Assembly (NCBI GenBank): GCA_020853815.1
Contig: JADYYE010000090.1
Coordinates: 1-64,000 of the forward strand
DNA length: 64,000 nt
Direction of reading: 5' to 3'
DNA from: Phycisphaerales bacterium
GTDB taxonomy: Bacteria; Planctomycetota; Phycisphaerae; Phycisphaerales; UBA1924
A program made the translations under genes and the position numbers. The first letter of the stretch is position 1. Each line of letters opens with the position of its first letter. Of this stretch, positions 4,828-11,478 are shown in pieces. The notes under the pieces are model-generated. The model ran no database searches, was not told where the DNA came from, and was given only the letters and a program-made list of their open reading frames with translations.

Positions 4828-4921
4828 GTGCGTGAAGGGTACGCGTGTGAACGGCGGTCTTCGGAAGAACGGGGAGGCCAAGATCGCCAACCTAAAGGAG
4901 AGGCGGCCATGACGGACGGAT

Positions 4922-5584
4922 TCAGCGAACCGTCCGTCCCTTGCTCTGCTGGTGGGCCTTGGGCGTGACGTGGAAGGTCGCGACGCTCTTGCCGACGCGA
5001 CGGTCCTTGCCCGCGACCTTCTCTCCGATCGCCTTTGGAAGAACTTTCTCCGCGCCCGGGCGCAGTCGCTGGGGGATGATCCCGGTCTGCACGATGTCCA
5101 TGTCGAGCGTGACATTGAACTCGCCGCCCGCGGCGATCATCGCCTTGATATCTTCGCGAGGCATGATCTTGTAGAGCGCCGGCCCGTGGCAGGGCCGCAG
5201 GAACTTGTACTCAAGGTTCTTGCACACGACCGTGTACTCGCCGCCGCACGCGTTGAAAACGTACATGCCGCCGGCGATCTCGCTGTTGCCAAGGAGTGCC
5301 GCGCCCGCCATCGCGTTGTACCAGTTGCGGTTGAAGCGGGTGAAGGGAAGTTCGGCCGCGAAGGTGCTCTCGTCCACCCGCTTCATGCGGATGCCCGAGC
5401 GAAATGCGTAGGGCAGCCAGATCATGGAGCAGACGCGATGCCAGAAGGCGTTGCGGGCCGAAAGACGGCTCACCCACGCGTCGAGGCGGTCCATGATGGT
5501 CGGCTTGGACGCGACCACGCCCCGCTTGCCCGCGGGCTCCATCGACGTGCTCGGACTCGTCGCCGCCTGCTCCAACTCCGACAT
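4922..5584 (-). CDS. DUF4442 / hotdog-fold (PaaI-like thioesterase) protein
   Basis: 220 residues. The central part has the DUF4442 pattern: a PFTRFNRNWYNAMAGAAL helix followed by GGMYVF and the FLRPCHGPALY strand, as in proteins related to PaaI-type acyl-CoA thioesterases. The first 45 residues are a low-complexity leader, and the basic tail (HQQSKGRTVR) is unlike the core. Thioesterase activity is a family-based guess; the substrate is unknown. It lies between an MBL hydrolase and a polytopic membrane protein, all on the minus strand. Confidence 0.75.
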   Translation of the reverse strand: MSELEQAATSPSTSMEPAGKRGVVASKPTIMDRLDAWVSRLSARNAFWHRVCSMIWLPYAFRSGIRMKRVDESTFAAELPFTRFNRNWYNAMAGAALLGNSEIAGGMYVFNACGGEYTVVCKNLEYKFLRPCHGPALYKIMPREDIKAMIAAGGEFNVTLDMDIVQTGIIPQRLRPGAEKVLPKAIGEKVAGKDRRVGKSVATFHVTPKAHQQSKGRTVR

Positions 5585-5675
5585 CTCCTCGACGCCTCAC
5601 GATTCTAGGGTTGCCCCGGCCAACCCCGCCGGCGCGCGCCTCTCCGCCCCGCCACAAGGCCACTCGGCCGCTGCC

Positions 5676-6683
5676 TTACCGCCCGTCCTCCACCAGCTCA
5701 AACCACGGGCCCGCTTCCTTCACGCGGCGGCACGGGTTGCCCGGCTCGTGGTCGAGCACCAGCATCCAGCCGCCCTCGCACGCGGCCCGCAGGAACCAGT
5801 GGCGCGTCACCATGCTGGTGTAGGGCTCGACGTCATAGCCGAGGCTGTACGCCGCCCCGAGGTGCCAGGCGGTGGGCATCACGTCGGGCGTGAACACGAT
5901 TGTCCGTCCCTTGTCGTCGATGAAGGTGATGGCCTGCTGGCCCCACGTGTGCCCGGGCGCGAGGAACACGCCCACGCCCGGCAGTCCCGCGAGCGTCGAC
6001 ACGCGGTTGTACACGGGCGCCAGCGGGAGTTCATCGCGCCCCGGGACATGCCCGGTGGGGAAAGGCCGCGGCGAATCGGCCAGCACCAGCCGCTCGCGGA
6101 TCAGCTCGAGGTGATCGCGGAAATAGGTCCGGGTCATGACGCTGCGGTTGGCGATGGCGTCGCTCCACTCGCGTGCCTGCGTGTGCAGGGCGGCGTTGGG
6201 GAACGTCAGCTTCACGCCGTGCTCGCCGCGCGAGCCCGCGAAGCACGAAGCGGCGCCGGTCCAGTCGGCCTTTTCTCCCGCGCGGGCGAGGCGCGTGAGC
6301 GCGCCGGCGTGGTCAAAGTGCAGGTGCGTCGTCACCACCGCGCCGATGTCCTCGCAGCGGCAGTTCTTTTCCTGGAGCGCGTCGCCGATCCAGCGCGTAC
6401 TCATGGCGAAGATGTCGCGGCTCTTGGCGTCGAGCTTGTCGCCGGTGCCGACCTCGATCAGCGCGAGCTTTGGGCCGCTCCCCTCGCCGACGCGTTCGAG
6501 CAGCAGGCAGTTGTGCTGGACCTCGATGCGTCCGCGTTCATCGGGCTTGGCGGTGCGCTCCCAGACGACGCGGGGGATGAGGCCGAACATGGAGCCGCCG
6601 TCGAGCCGGAACGCGCCGGCGCGCAGGATTTCCCAGCGATATCGAGTGCTCGTGTCGAGGAGCGGTTGTGGTGTGTTCGGCAT
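5676..6683 (-). CDS. MBL-fold metallo-hydrolase
   Basis: 335 residues from ATG 6683 (MPNTPQP); an upstream ATG at 6746 is in frame but gives a non-conserved leader. The metal motif is complete: H120-L-H-F-D124-H125 in THLHFDHAG, then the APGHTWGQQ histidine, the FTPDVMP aspartate and a late LDHEPG histidine. This is a class B-like di-zinc hydrolase of the lactonase/phosphodiesterase type. A long insertion between the first motif and APGHT carries a TYFRDHLELI helix seen in quorum-lactonase relatives. The substrate cannot be told. Its promoter region is shared with the divergent recA. Confidence 0.85.
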   Translation of the reverse strand: MPNTPQPLLDTSTRYRWEILRAGAFRLDGGSMFGLIPRVVWERTAKPDERGRIEVQHNCLLLERVGEGSGPKLALIEVGTGDKLDAKSRDIFAMSTRWIGDALQEKNCRCEDIGAVVTTHLHFDHAGALTRLARAGEKADWTGAASCFAGSRGEHGVKLTFPNAALHTQAREWSDAIANRSVMTRTYFRDHLELIRERLVLADSPRPFPTGHVPGRDELPLAPVYNRVSTLAGLPGVGVFLAPGHTWGQQAITFIDDKGRTIVFTPDVMPTAWHLGAAYSLGYDVEPYTSMVTRHWFLRAACEGGWMLVLDHEPGNPCRRVKEAGPWFELVEDGR

Positions 6684-6841
6684 GGGTCGGATCGTAGGGG
6701 ACGCGACCAGCGGGTTGCGCGGGCCGTGTTCGAGGCGGGTCAACACTCCCTAAGTGCATGAATGGTCTCGCATTAGGCAATATCGCGGCTTCAAGGTGAT
6801 TGTGGATAACCTGTCGATGGTTCTCGAATCCGATCAGCCAC

Positions 6842-6870
6842 TTGACGCGATGTTCGGTTGTTGATAAAGT
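6842..6870 (+). promoter_or_regulatory. Predicted sigma-70 promoter of recA
   Basis: TTGACG at 6842-6847 and TAAAGT at 6865-6870, separated by exactly 17 bp, about 160 bp before the recA start. I found no GAAC-N4-GTTC or CTGT-N8-ACAG LexA operator next to it, so SOS control is not shown by the sequence. Confidence 0.5.
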
Positions 6871-7030
6871 GTTCGTGCCGGGCTCGCGTCCAGCGCCGCC
6901 CCCGGCCGCGGCGGAATCGAGTGATTTCCCGTGCCTTGCGCTCGGCCCCCGTGGGCCCTCAGAGAGTCCGGTCCGCCCCCGCGGACCCCGGGACGACGAG
7001 GCCACCCACGGCAGAAAAGGCAGGTGTTTC

Positions 7031-8146
7031 ATGGCAGCGTCGTCGACCGCGCAGTCCTCCGTTCCGGCCGTCTCCAAGATCGCCAACAAGGTCGAGGTGA
7101 AGCTGGAGGACAAGGAAAAGTCGCAGGCGCTGGGGCGTGCCGTCTCCCAGATCGAGAAGACCTTCGGCAAGGGCTCGATCATGCGGATGGACGAGGCCGC
7201 GTACCTCAGCATCCCCGGAATCTCAACCGGCGCTCTCTCGCTCGATCTTGCCCTGGGCGGCAAGGGAATCCCGCGCGGGCGAATCGTCGAGATCTTCGGG
7301 CCGGAATCGTCCGGCAAGACCACCCTGGCCCTGACCGTGGCGGCCCACGCGCAGCGCGAGGGCGGCGTGGCGGCCTTCATCGACGCCGAGCACGCGCTCG
7401 ACCCCTCGTGGGCCCGCAAGATCGGCGTCAACATCGATGATCTCCTGGTGTCCCAGCCCGACACGGGCGAGCAGGCCCTGGAGATCTGCGAACTGCTGGT
7501 GCGCTCCAACGCGGTCGACATCATCGTCGTCGACTCCGTCGCGGCCCTGATTCCCAAGGCCGAAATCGAGGGCGAGATGGGCGACGCGGTCGTCGGCCTC
7601 CAAGCCCGCCTGATGTCGCAGGCGATGCGCAAGCTCACGGGCGTCATCGCCCGCTCCAATTGCACCGTCATCTTCATCAACCAGATCCGCGAGAAGATCG
7701 GCGTGATGTACGGCTCGCCCGAGACCACGACCGGCGGGCGGGCCCTCAAGTTCTATTCGTCGGTGCGCATCGACGTTCGGCGCACGGGCGCGATCAAGGA
7801 GGGCGAGGTCACGGTCGGCAGCCGCACGCGCGGTCGCGTGGTGAAGAACAAGATCGCCCCGCCGTTCCGCGAGGCGGAGTTCGACATCATGTACAACGAG
7901 GGCATCTCGGCCGAGGGCGACCTGATCGACCTTGGCGTGGAGGCCGGCGTGGTGCAGAAGAGCGGGGCGTGGTACAGCTACGGCGAGGTGCGCGTGGGCC
8001 AGGGGCGCGAGGCGTCGAAGCAGTTCCTCCGCGAGAACGCCGAACTGGCCAAGGAAATCCGCCAGAAGATCCTGGCGATCAAGATGGCGCACGTCGCGCC
8101 GGCGGTTGTGGCCGCGAACGACGAGGACGAGGGCGACGAGGAATAG
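7031..8146 (+). CDS. recA: Recombinase RecA
   Basis: 371 residues, usual length. RecA coats single-stranded DNA, performs ATP-dependent strand exchange and drives SOS induction. Walker A GPESSGKT is at residues 90-97, followed by the [10 protein letters not shown] segment, the [10 protein letters not shown] Walker B, loop 1 and loop 2 ([28 protein letters not shown]) and an acidic tail (DEDEGDEE), all orthodox. The ATG at 7031 follows AAAGGCAGG; the upstream frame is open but non-conserved. It is transcribed alone: no RecX or CinA follows, and a strong terminator lies 38 bp downstream. Confidence 0.98.
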
Positions 8147-8184
8147 GGCTTAACGCCGAATGTGAATGACTTTGATTGTGACGG

Positions 8185-8216
8185 GGCCCGCCGTGAAATC
8201 CGGCGGGCCTTGTTCG
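8185..8216 (+). terminator. Rho-independent terminator of recA
   Basis: Nine-bp perfect stem, GGCCCGCCG (8185-8193) with CGGCGGGCC (8201-8209), 7-nt loop, then TTGTTCGTT. It sits right after the recA stop. Confidence 0.8.
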
Positions 8217-8334
8217 TTGAGAGATGGAGTGGCCGCCCGCTCGCGGGGAGTGGGGGGCCGCGGTATGCTGATCGTGCGATGGTGCGGCTGCTAGACAAGT
8301 ACCCCGAGGCACTCCGCGGGTGTGCCACCCCGTC

Positions 8335-8673
8335 ATGATCGTTGTGAGAACCGCTGTGGACGCAAAGCGCAAGGCAATCGCCGCTCGAATCGCTCGCCTT
8401 GAGGATGCGATCGCAAAGGCGGTCGCGTACATCGAGCGCGGCGAGCACGCCGACTGGTGCGGCTTTCGGCCGCTGTTCGTTGAGAAGAGGCGATCGGGGA
8501 AGCGGCTTCCGCCGCATCGCGATTGGGTTAGAAACGTCTTTCTGGTGCGAGCTGAGCGTGATCTCCGGCACGCTGAGAGGACTCTGGACCGGATGGAATC
8601 AAGCGAAGCGCGGGCGTGCCGAGCCGCCAGTTCTAATAAGAAGCCGACTAACCAATCGCCTGGAGGTGAGTAG
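8335..8673 (+). CDS. Small hypothetical protein, charged and helical
   Basis: 112 residues from ATG 8335 (an in-frame GTG lies at 8320). Two strongly helical, charged blocks (KRKAIAARIARLEDAIAKAV and RAERDLRHAERTLDRME) flank a central ADWCGFRPLFVEKRRSGKRLPPHRDWVRN segment rich in aromatics and basics. No family recognised. Its stop overlaps the ribosome site of the next small ORF, suggesting a two-gene unit. Base composition is less GC-rich than the surroundings, consistent with accessory DNA. Coding is likely but not certain. Confidence 0.5.
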   Translation: MIVVRTAVDAKRKAIAARIARLEDAIAKAVAYIERGEHADWCGFRPLFVEKRRSGKRLPPHRDWVRNVFLVRAERDLRHAERTLDRMESSEARACRAASSNKKPTNQSPGGE

Positions 8674-8679
8674 GCGGCG

Positions 8680-9042
8680 ATGTCACACGTATTTATTCAA
8701 TGGGGACCAAATACAAACGACATAGTGATCGTTTGTATTTATGTGCCGATCTTCGTGTGTCACCTCTTGTGTGAAGCACGGGCACGCTCCGTGCTTGATG
8801 CGAGTTCGTGGCGACAGCGGCGCGGCGTTCTCGGGTTGCGCCTTCCCGTTGCGTGCATCGCGGTCATAGCGGTCGGTACGATAGTAACAGTCGCATGGCA
8901 TGCCTACATATCATATGTCGCATATGCCACGGGTTCTTGGACGAGACTGCCAAAGATGATCTGGTTTCATATCATTGGAGTGTCCGCGGTTGGTTGGCTG
9001 AGTTGGCATTGGGTGCGTGAATTCATCGCTGTTTCAGAGTGA
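8680..9042 (+). CDS. Small membrane protein, three TM segments, unknown
   Basis: 120 residues with three hydrophobic spans (about residues 14-30, 52-75 and 92-112). An excellent GGAGGTGA ribosome site precedes ATG 8680 and overlaps the end of the upstream small gene. Cysteine, tryptophan and isoleucine are unusually frequent and the DNA is markedly AT-richer than the chromosome around it. A perfect 12-bp inverted repeat falls inside codons 10-21. No family recognised; probably a recently acquired gene. Confidence 0.5.
   Translation: MSHVFIQWGPNTNDIVIVCIYVPIFVCHLLCEARARSVLDASSWRQRRGVLGLRLPVACIAVIAVGTIVTVAWHAYISYVAYATGSWTRLPKMIWFHIIGVSAVGWLSWHWVREFIAVSE
8709..8740. repeat. Perfect 12-bp inverted repeat inside the small membrane-protein gene
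   Basis: AAATACAAACGA (8709-8720) and its exact complement (8729-8740) around an 8-nt spacer. It is AT-rich in GC-rich surroundings and begins about 30 bases into the ORF, where an mRNA hairpin could act on translation or a protein could bind. Confidence 0.7.
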
Positions 9043-9492
9043 AGCCGAGAGTGTTGCGATATGCTCTCGGAGATCAGTCGGAAGTGCGGTCCAGTGATCT
9101 CAAAGGCTATCAGTTGAAGGGCTATCCGCCGGCTGGGAGTTCCTGCACGTGGGCATCGACGACCACGCCAACAGCGATAGCCCTGACGCTGTGAATTTTC
9201 GGGGCCGTGGCACCAAAGCCCCGCACGAACAGAGCCCTTCTTCTGTCTAGCTTGACACTAATGTTGGCTTGGCGAAATGAGTGGCTCTACGGCCATGCGT
9301 GGACCTTGACCCTTTCTGTTCAAGTCGATCGGCAGGAGCACCCCTTCGGGGTGCGATGTTGACGAGTCGCGCGTCCCGGGGGTTACGCTTGCGGACTCGC
9401 TCAACCCCCCGGCTACGGGAGAACAGCCCTTCGGGCTGAAGGTGCGGCATCCGCTTCAGACCCCCTGTGTTCGGGCTGAAGACGCGGCCGCC
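9043..9492. other. Non-coding stretch between the recA island and the ruvC fragment
   Basis: 450 bp without a credible gene. The first 290 bp show no clear structure; the last 150 bp are the REP-like hairpin cassette listed separately. A 67-codon minus-strand open frame here is only the translation of that cassette. Confidence 0.6.
9336..9482. repeat. REP-like cassette of GC-rich hairpins
   Basis: Successive short palindromes: GCACCCC-TTC-GGGGTGC (9338-9354), a larger stem pairing GGGGGTT with AACCCCC across the CGCTTGCGGACTCGCT middle, AGCCC-TTC-GGGCT (9425-9437), and a further TTCGGGCTGAA. The layout resembles the intergenic REP-type mosaics of planctomycete genomes that are mobilised by RAYT (Y1) transposases. 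Only one copy lies in this window and no transposase is nearby, so family membership is by resemblance. Confidence 0.55.
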
Positions 9493-9678
9493 TCACATCC
9501 CATGCCTTCGTGCCGCGCACAGCGCGATCGCGATCGCGTCGGCGACGTCGGGCGGGCTTGGAGGCTCGGGCAGATTGAACATGGACTGGACGGCCCGCTG
9601 CATCTGGCCCTTGCTCGCCAGGCCGTGCGCGGTCATGGCGCGCTTGACGAGGTTGGGCTTGAACTCGATGAGCTGCAC
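9493..9678 (-). pseudogene. ruvC: C-terminal remnant of Holliday-junction resolvase RuvC
   Basis: 61 residues that align with only the last third of RuvC: FKPNLVKRAMTAHGLASKGQ matches the family's substrate-binding helix region, and PPDVADAIAIALC keeps both aspartates of the D-x-A-A-D-A active-site pair. The N-terminal 100 or so residues, carrying the first catalytic Asp and the Glu, are absent. Immediately upstream is the frr stop codon, and frr occupies the place where the rest of ruvC should be. A GTG at 9678 could start the fragment, and the frame is open a few codons further into frr. No frameshift or stop is seen within the fragment, so the truncation is recent, or it is an assembly join. 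Confidence 0.7.
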
Positions 9679-9683
9679 GCCGC

Positions 9684-10253
9684 TCAGATCTGCATGATCT
9701 CTTTGGTCTTCTCGTCGACGCGCTTGTCGACGTCTTCCTCGTACTTCTTGAGGAGCGACTGGATCTCTTCCTTCAGCGTTTCGATCTCGTCCTCGGGGAC
9801 GTGAACGCCCGGCTGGTTGCTCAGGGCTTCGGCGTGCTTGTTGGCGTCTCGCCGCCCGTTGCGCAGGATGACCTTGGTCTCTTCGCCGAGTTTCTTGACG
9901 CGGGCGGAGAGCTGCTGGCGGCGTTCGGCGGAGAGCGCGGGGATGACCAGGCGGATCTGCTTGGGCTCGACGATGGGGTTGAGGCCGAGGCCCGAGGCTT
10001 CGATCGCGTGGCGGATGGCGCTGATGGAGCCTTGGTCGAAGGGGCGGATGAGGATCTGGGTGGGCTCGGGGATGCTGATGGCGGCAAGCCCTTTGAGCTC
10101 GGTCATCGAGCCGTAGTAATCGACCTTGAGGAAGTCGACGAGGGCGGTGGTGGCGCGGCCGGTGCGCAGGCCGCGGAACTCGTGCTTGAGATACTCGACG
10201 GCCTTCTCCATCGCTTCTTCGGTCTCGAGGAGAATCGTGTCAGGATCGCTCAT
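9684..10253 (-). CDS. frr: Ribosome recycling factor
   Basis: 189 residues, usual length. RRF splits post-termination ribosomes together with EF-G. Conserved blocks are all present: HEFRGLRTGRA near the N-terminus, YYGSMTELKGLAAISIPEPTQ, the PIVEPKQIRLVIPALSAERR hinge and the C-terminal LKKYEEDVDKRVDEKTKEIM helix. ATG 10253 has AAGGA upstream. It lies 155 bp after pyrH on the same strand, the common pyrH-frr order, although rpsB and tsf are not adjacent upstream. Confidence 0.97.
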   Translation of the reverse strand: MSDPDTILLETEEAMEKAVEYLKHEFRGLRTGRATTALVDFLKVDYYGSMTELKGLAAISIPEPTQILIRPFDQGSISAIRHAIEASGLGLNPIVEPKQIRLVIPALSAERRQQLSARVKKLGEETKVILRNGRRDANKHAEALSNQPGVHVPEDEIETLKEEIQSLLKKYEEDVDKRVDEKTKEIMQI

Positions 10254-10408
10254 GGTGTGTTCCTTGTCAGGGGCGGAGAGCCGACCCTGGGGCCATCATA
10301 CGTCGGTGGGTGGGGCCATCGGCGATGCGTGGTGGGGCCCGGTTGGCGGATGCGTGGCCAGCAGGTTGGCCACGCCGCCCGGAAGCAACCTGAGTCAGCC
10401 GGCCTGAA

Positions 10409-11173
10409 TCAGCCGGCCGTCACGATGGTGCCGACGCTCTTGCCCTCGATGACTCGTCGGATGTTGCCCTTGACGTTGAAGTCGAAGACCAGGAGGGGGA
10501 GCTGGTGCTCCTGGCACATGGCCAGGGCGGTCATGTCCATGATGCGGAGGTTCTTCGCGATGGCCTCGGAGAAGGTGAGGCGGTCGTAGCGCTTGGCGGA
10601 TGGGTCTTTCTTGGGATCGGCGGTGTACACGCCGTCGACCTTGGTCGCCTTGAGGATGACGTCGCACTCCAGTTCGATCGCGCGGAGGGAGGCGCAGGTG
10701 TCGGTGGTGAAGAAGGGGTTGCCGGGGCCGGCGGCGAGGATGACGACGCGGCCTTTTTCCAGGTGGCGGATCGCCCGGTTGCGGATGAACGGCTCGGCGA
10801 CGGCCTTGATGTCGATCGCGGACATGACGCGGCAATCGACGTCCATGCTGACGAGCTTTTCGCGCAGGGCCATGGCGTTGATGACGGTGCCCAGCATGCC
10901 CATGTAGTCGGCGGTGGACTGGGGGATGTGCCCGGCGGCGGCGAGGGAGGCGCCGCGGATGATGTTCCCGCCGCCCACGACGACGGCGACCTGGGCACCG
11001 ACCTGGCAGGCGTCCTTGACCTCGGCCGCGATGGCTTCAACCTCGTCGGGGTCAATGCCGAAGCCACCCGGCTTGCAGAAGGACTCGCCGCTGAGCTTGA
11101 GGAGGACGCGTTTGAAGTCGCTCCGGCCTTTGGAGGGTGATTCGGACTTGGGCGAGCGTTTGGTGGGCGGCAT
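10409..11173 (-). CDS. pyrH: Uridylate kinase
   Basis: 254 residues. It phosphorylates UMP to UDP with ATP in pyrimidine nucleotide synthesis. Amino-acid-kinase fold motifs: LLKLSGESF near residue 25, VVVGGGNIIRG, the DYMGMLGTVINA helix, GPGNPFFTTDT and the KATKVDGVYTADPKK nucleotide loop. ATG 11173 is preceded by AGGAGA. The first 20 residues are a basic, serine-rich extension common in this phylum. frr follows. Confidence 0.97.
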   Translation of the reverse strand: MPPTKRSPKSESPSKGRSDFKRVLLKLSGESFCKPGGFGIDPDEVEAIAAEVKDACQVGAQVAVVVGGGNIIRGASLAAAGHIPQSTADYMGMLGTVINAMALREKLVSMDVDCRVMSAIDIKAVAEPFIRNRAIRHLEKGRVVILAAGPGNPFFTTDTCASLRAIELECDVILKATKVDGVYTADPKKDPSAKRYDRLTFSEAIAKNLRIMDMTALAMCQEHQLPLLVFDFNVKGNIRRVIEGKSVGTIVTAG

Positions 11174-11252: not shown

Positions 11253-11346
11253 TGCGTCGGTAGTACACTGGTTGGGAGAACCGCCCGGCGCCAGGGGACG
11301 AACCCCAAGAGGGCGGCGGTCGGCGGACCGGGCGTAGTTGGCTGGT

Positions 11347-11438
11347 GGCTGGGTGTGGTGGCTGGGTGTGGTGGCTGGGTGTGGTGGCTGGGTGTGGTGG
11401 CTGGGTGTGGTGGCTGGGTGTGGTGGCTGGGTGTGGTG
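11347..11438. repeat. 13-bp minisatellite, seven tandem copies
   Basis: The unit GGCTGGGTGTGGT is repeated seven times with a constant 13-bp period and no mismatch within the core. It lies in the divergent region between pyrH (minus) and the vWA gene (plus), ending about 40 bp before the latter's start. It is strongly strand-asymmetric (G/T on plus), which favours slippage. Any reading through it gives a WVWWLGVVAGCGG-type artefact peptide. Confidence 0.95.
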
Positions 11439-11478
11439 TCCAGCTGTGGGTCGGATCGGGTCGATACGGGATACTGAG

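Follow-up and report, generated by a model that had tools for sequence, protein, structure and literature searches.

A partial copy of the ruvC 3' end behind frr in a Phycisphaerales genome, probably left at a chromosomal rearrangement breakpoint

Several described systems bear on the locus reported here. RuvC is a Holliday-junction resolvase with a recognizable domain (PF02075). Microhomology-mediated illegitimate joins occur in bacteria and leave a few common bases where unrelated sequences meet. A further process, the duplication of DNA linked to chromosomal inversion, was reportedly proposed by Furuta et al. for Helicobacter pylori. A later paper that cites Furuta et al. also reports that, in 19 of 29 strains, insertion sequences lie around the breakpoints of inversions (PMC6933940).

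We examined a window of 64,000 nucleotides (positions 1-64,000 of a contig in the assembly G000) and compared it with three congeners, G001, G002, and G003. Directly behind frr lies an open reading frame that keeps the last third of the RuvC domain, including the C-terminal D-x-A-D-A motif. Unlike the resolvase, it lacks profile positions 1 to 94 and two active-site acids, so that formation of a nuclease is not expected. As in the duplications proposed for H. pylori, a short copy of a gene end apparently stands at a rearrangement breakpoint. For a second fragment of this kind, in G002, the uninverted adjacency can be seen (a GH2 gene beside tRNA-Leu in G000 and G003). Searches with the G003 frr flank and with xseB identified no uninverted adjacency partner of frr for the fragment in the window, and the copies cluster by genome here, a pattern that gene conversion explains too. 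The locus also resembles bacterial microhomology joins in the few bases common to both sides, but the frr flank taken as parent belongs to a congener and not to a direct ancestor. A partial literature search, by titles, found no paper title on a ruvC fragment. The locus adds one more case to a known kind; what is unusual is that a fragment of the same gene recurs in a second species.

The fragment and the complete ruvC gene

The fragment is an open reading frame of 61 amino acids on the reverse strand (9493..9678; GTG start, TGA stop), recognized by Pfam and NCBIfam profile scores and corresponding to the last 61 residues of RuvC, roughly the last third of the domain. It passes the curated Pfam cutoff for the RuvC domain over profile positions 95-147 of 148 only (E 2.7e-11, 44 bits against a cutoff of 22.2), and its translation contains the motif D-V-A-D-A. 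An earlier note, made from the letters of the DNA, was therefore right in placing a RuvC C-terminal third directly behind frr. Two NCBIfam RuvC models match the fragment only over the C-terminal part of the models and below their cutoffs (60.4 bits against 163 for NF000711; 37.6 against 100.65 for TIGR00228), but the complete ruvC of G000 also falls short of both (140 and 84.1 bits, respectively), so these equivalog scores do not separate fragment from gene. Among the residues absent from the fragment are the GIDPG aspartate and the VAVE glutamate, which we take to be active-site residues of RuvC; their positions were placed by aligning the complete protein to solved RuvC chains. Because both fall in the absent part, the fragment is not a complete RuvC domain with all acidic active-site residues and is not expected to be a nuclease.

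The neighboring frr gene, for ribosome recycling factor, is intact (9684..10253, reverse strand; PF01765, 171.8 bits). Its stop codon occupies 9684-9686, and DNA matching ruvC starts at 9682, one base past it. The GTG codon of the fragment lies five bases behind the stop (9679-9683 between), which replaces the eight-base spacing given previously. Upstream of frr is a gene of the amino acid kinase family (10412..11173, reverse strand; PF00696), presumably pyrH by its position. Farther upstream, at 11340-11440, a short tandem array with a unit close to TGGCTGGGTGTGG was seen by eye, and the alignment to G003 breaks at this array. The genes scored against Pfam were frr, ruvC, ribD, the GH2 gene, the RNase HII-type gene, and the insertion sequence (IS); recA, ribE, xseA, xseB, rbsK, and purH were named by sequence recognition, with no family score.

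The rest of ruvC is missing from the locus behind frr, as had been noted, but not from the assembly: the search for a full-length gene elsewhere in the genome that the earlier note proposed found one on contig C297 (PF02075 profile 2-147, 110 bits). Because of this gene, loss of ruvC was rejected, and a deletion remnant, one of the options in the same note, is not supported as what is left of an only ruvC. The copy of its 3' end in the window (9495..9682, reverse strand) is 188 bp long and 96.8% identical to it. The G000 assembly is a draft of 4.52 Mb in 329 contigs, 93.7% complete, and given its estimated contamination of 3.76%, C297, a 10-kb contig, could in principle be a stray from a related species. 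The contig is 89.8% similar to G003 over 2.2 kb, a value like that of the window (88 to 94%), which speaks for the same organism, short of proof.

On C297, ruvC sits behind ribE, a gene that precedes ruvC in 11 of 80 loci surveyed, G002 included, and is flanked by an IS4/5-type element followed by xseA. The element, whose family was scored and whose matching 19-bp ends were found by eye, abuts the complete ruvC (about 4838-5687 of locus L035, on C297), and the stop codon of the listed ruvC frame (5685-5687) falls within the end of the element. Identical 115-bp inverted sequences lie near both ends of the contig (1-115 and 9903-10017 of L035); their position suggests that C297 may have been cut at a repeat. 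A gene resembling an NtrC-type regulator follows ruvC at three of 13 loci inspected by eye (L063, L069, and L086). The best NtrC-type counterparts in the four congeners, G000 included, are not beside ruvC, that of G002 lying about 97 kb off, on the contig of the fragment.

A second fragment and the DNA behind recA

Matches to RuvC were found in 38 of 41 genomes (our own and 40 relatives), and only G000 and G002 have two. No match was found in G024, of the same family, nor in G001 and G003, and since the latter genomes are 83% and 89% complete, absence from them means little. G002 carries a complete ruvC and a ruvC 3' fragment covering profile positions 82-147, which lies on the same side of recA and in the same orientation as the fragment in the window. 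The order in G002 is recA, RHS-type DNA, a 120-amino-acid open reading frame, the ruvC fragment, tRNA-Leu, an RNase HII-type gene, and ribD; the fragment abuts tRNA-Leu instead of frr, and frr is on a different contig. The possibility, raised earlier, that relatives lack any RuvC similarity here thus holds behind frr, in all three congeners, but not on the recA side, where G002 has its fragment. The two G002 copies lie deep within long contigs, 24 kb into one of 310 kb and 205 kb into one of 328 kb, and the DNA between them is thus too long for an element of ordinary size. An integrative element with the ruvC 3' end as attachment site was set aside, by reasoning only.

The open reading frame containing recA (6800..8146, forward strand) is convergent with the fragment; it was recognized from sequence and has orthologues in all nine genomes searched. 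Behind it, sequence comparison identified a stretch related to the DNA behind recA in G002 (8238..8307, forward strand), which we read as RHS-type debris. Positions 8162-8335 of the window gave no family match in Pfam or NCBIfam, and the RHS core domain (TIGR03696) scored in one G002 open reading frame only. Two short open reading frames follow on the forward strand. One, of 117 amino acids (8320..8673), is also found behind recA in G003, where its first 99 amino acids are identical; the other, of 120 amino acids (8680..9042), is 59% identical to a frame at the corresponding place in G002 and has no match in Pfam or NCBIfam. In G003 the 117-amino-acid frame is accompanied by debris that resembles RHS-type pieces by eye and matched no family. 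RHS-type debris and short orphan open reading frames occur behind recA in three of the four congeners, each time different; the stretches that hold them, with the RHS-type pieces mostly read by eye, span 8150-9490 in the window, 9740-11900 in L033, and 1740-3000 in L058. The debris possibly represents worn-down toxin-tip and immunity cassettes.

A repeat cassette of short repeats and palindromes (about 9300..9492, unstranded) separates this DNA from the fragment and has seven further partial matches in the assembly. The earlier description of a REP-like cassette stands as far as the repeats go, but the term is descriptive only: no Rfam family reached its cutoff in 8000-10300, and a curated RNA element was rejected on that ground.

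Junctions and rearranged neighborhoods

In all three congeners the likeness to the window ends no more than about a dozen bases past the frr stop, and no ruvC match lies behind frr in the roughly 9.8 kb of G002, 5.2 kb of G003, and 2.1 kb of G001 that could be searched. An ancestral adjacency of frr and ruvC was rejected, as it was seen in none of them; among the four congeners, the frr side of the fragment junction was found only in G000. In G003, the closest congener as judged by frr and recA similarity, the frr flank runs GAGCGGCGTGC before it diverges; the ruvC sequence is GCCGGCGTGC, beyond which it follows the window. The G003 frr flank and ruvC have exactly eight bases in common, CGGCGTGC, and these stand at the frr/ruvC junction of the window (9675..9682, reverse strand). 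When the two parent regions were paired at random 200,000 times, 63 pairings had a shared run of at least 8 bases. The eight common bases fit end joining or a template switch at microhomology. They are not present behind frr in G001 or G002. Alternatively, G003 could derive from the same join and have lost the fragment later, with CGGCGTGC as its trace.

As a query, the G003 frr flank retrieved mostly dispersed repeats, and the DNA behind frr in G003 (L046, 4865-5700) contains repeats with 49 partial matches in G000 (40 of 119 G000 candidates scored in both cases). The intergenic regions of the genus appear to be rich in dispersed repeats.

At the opposite end, the fragments of G000 and G002 look as if they have a 3' junction in common. 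Counted from the last base that matches its own ruvC, each continues with GAGGCG and, past a gap of 3 bases and a single mismatch, with CCGCGTC. This continuation is found in neither complete ruvC; in G000 the IS hides the older flank.

The gene order around both copies differs among the congeners. The GH2 gene is directly beside tRNA-Leu in G000 and G003; in G002 it adjoins the complete ruvC, and tRNA-Leu adjoins the fragment. The genes xseA and xseB stand side by side in G001 and G002 but on separate contigs in G000, where xseA faces the IS and ruvC. Because the ruvC/GH2, ruvC/xseA, tRNA-Leu/GH2, and xseA/xseB junctions vary between species, we regard them as rearrangement breakpoints. The ends of the ruvC and recA neighborhoods are such breakpoints, and the fragments are located on them. 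Of the options in the earlier note, it is the join that is supported, as one made by rearrangement. Reciprocal junctions were not found: the neighbor of xseB in G000 matches none of the stretches around frr, recA, and ruvC, and the searches with xseA and xseB added one more break and no link to frr. In three of five family outgroups examined (G009, G006, and G012), tRNA-Leu follows recA on the same strand; in G014 it is on the opposite side of recA, and in G005 there is none within the 16 kb examined. Judged by gene order, the recA to tRNA-Leu arrangement of G002 looks old. Strong matches to the GH2 gene were present in 8 of 41 family genomes, our own included; the short stretches examined in the other seven contained neither ruvC nor recA nor a gene of RNase H type, and in three of the seven rbsK is beside the GH2 gene.

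Origin of the copies

Over 183 bp, 6 sites separate the fragment in the window from its own ruvC. For the G002 fragment and its own ruvC the number is 15, with about half of these sites in the last 22 bases; between the two fragments it is 12, and between the two complete genes 23. Seven variable sites support a clustering of the copies by genome, and no site supports one by fragment versus gene. The tree that groups by locus was rejected (AU test, P = 0.0006), as was the third possible tree (P = 0.0008; 160 bp). Since the copies cluster by genome and not by locus, they were either homogenized within each genome or made independently. Counts of synonymous and nonsynonymous changes are based on 4 to 17 differences in 159 bases and settle nothing: two of the four differences between the window fragment and its own ruvC change the amino acid, and none of the nine between the G002 fragment and the G000 ruvC does so over the first 159 bases, too few sites in either case. 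The G002 fragment could be under constraint.

We consider it highly probable that the fragment is a nonfunctional partial copy of the ruvC 3' end at a chromosomal rearrangement breakpoint. It is apparently pseudogene-like, a product of ordinary genome wear, with a similar leftover in a related species. The sequence of events would begin with a ruvC 3' fragment already present between recA and tRNA-Leu, in an interval that had acquired RHS-type debris. In the G000 lineage, a break inside that fragment would have been joined to the DNA behind frr at the eight common base pairs, by microhomology-mediated end joining or template switching. The similarity of fragment and gene within a genome could have arisen by gene conversion or by independent duplication at an inversion breakpoint, and the 61-residue frame would yield at most an accidental, translationally coupled peptide.

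Given that the copies cluster by genome, inheritance of one old fragment is insufficient, and conversion or repeated duplication is needed in addition. To an inherited fragment with gene conversion, which is favored by the outgroup order of recA followed by tRNA-Leu, we assign about an even chance. A variant of the same preferred reading, which we think rather doubtful, is that each lineage underwent a separate staggered-end inversion; other histories make up the remainder. The complete ruvC of the ancestor would then have stood at the present site of the fragments, facing recA, until the inversions moved it off, with a copy of its 3' end staying behind beside tRNA-Leu in G002 and beside frr in G000. 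Two such duplications would account for the clustering by genome, and the bases past the stop that are common to the fragments and found in neither complete ruvC would be the expected original flank, although in G000 the IS abuts ruvC and hides what stood there before. The GH2 gene and tRNA-Leu, adjacent in G000 and G003 and split in G002, have the appearance of an inversion with one duplicated end, and independent duplications at the ends of inversions explain this pattern no less well than inheritance does. The old-looking order of recA and tRNA-Leu in G002, seen in three of five outgroups, would however need to have been restored by chance, and the two copies are on separate contigs in both genomes, where contig breaks hide their orientation. 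We also regard it as improbable, if conceivable, that ruvC and its detached 3' end form a lasting dispersed repeat pair that would drive repeated inversions between the ruvC and recA neighborhoods, with conversion keeping the copies alike within a genome.

The earlier note had also entertained a domain used on its own and a misassembly. As to the former, the 61-residue RuvC end might be translated behind frr and act as a stand-alone domain, for example by binding RuvC or junction DNA; the frame is open, begins with GTG five bases past the frr stop, could ride on the frr transcript, and encodes a protein nearly identical to the end of RuvC. We give this only a slight chance: no ruvC sequence stands behind frr in the three congeners, the N-terminal part is absent together with two acids whose active-site roles we presume, and, as weaker points, two of the four differences from its own ruvC over 159 bases replace an amino acid and no sigma-70-like promoter site was found in 9100-9800, which counts for little since frr lies upstream. 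An assembly artifact at the junction of frr and the fragment is very unlikely. The assembly is a draft of many contigs with some estimated contamination, and the junction occurs in one assembly only, but the fragment is linked to the recA side again in the separate assembly of G002, the window contains no N, and the junction shares only 8 bp, which is less than the overlap used by assemblers.

The fragment should therefore not be taken for a loss of ruvC or for a new RuvC-domain protein. It illustrates on a small scale how rearrangement of a bacterial chromosome copies and scatters the ends of genes, here around the recombination genes recA and ruvC and within two species of the same genus.
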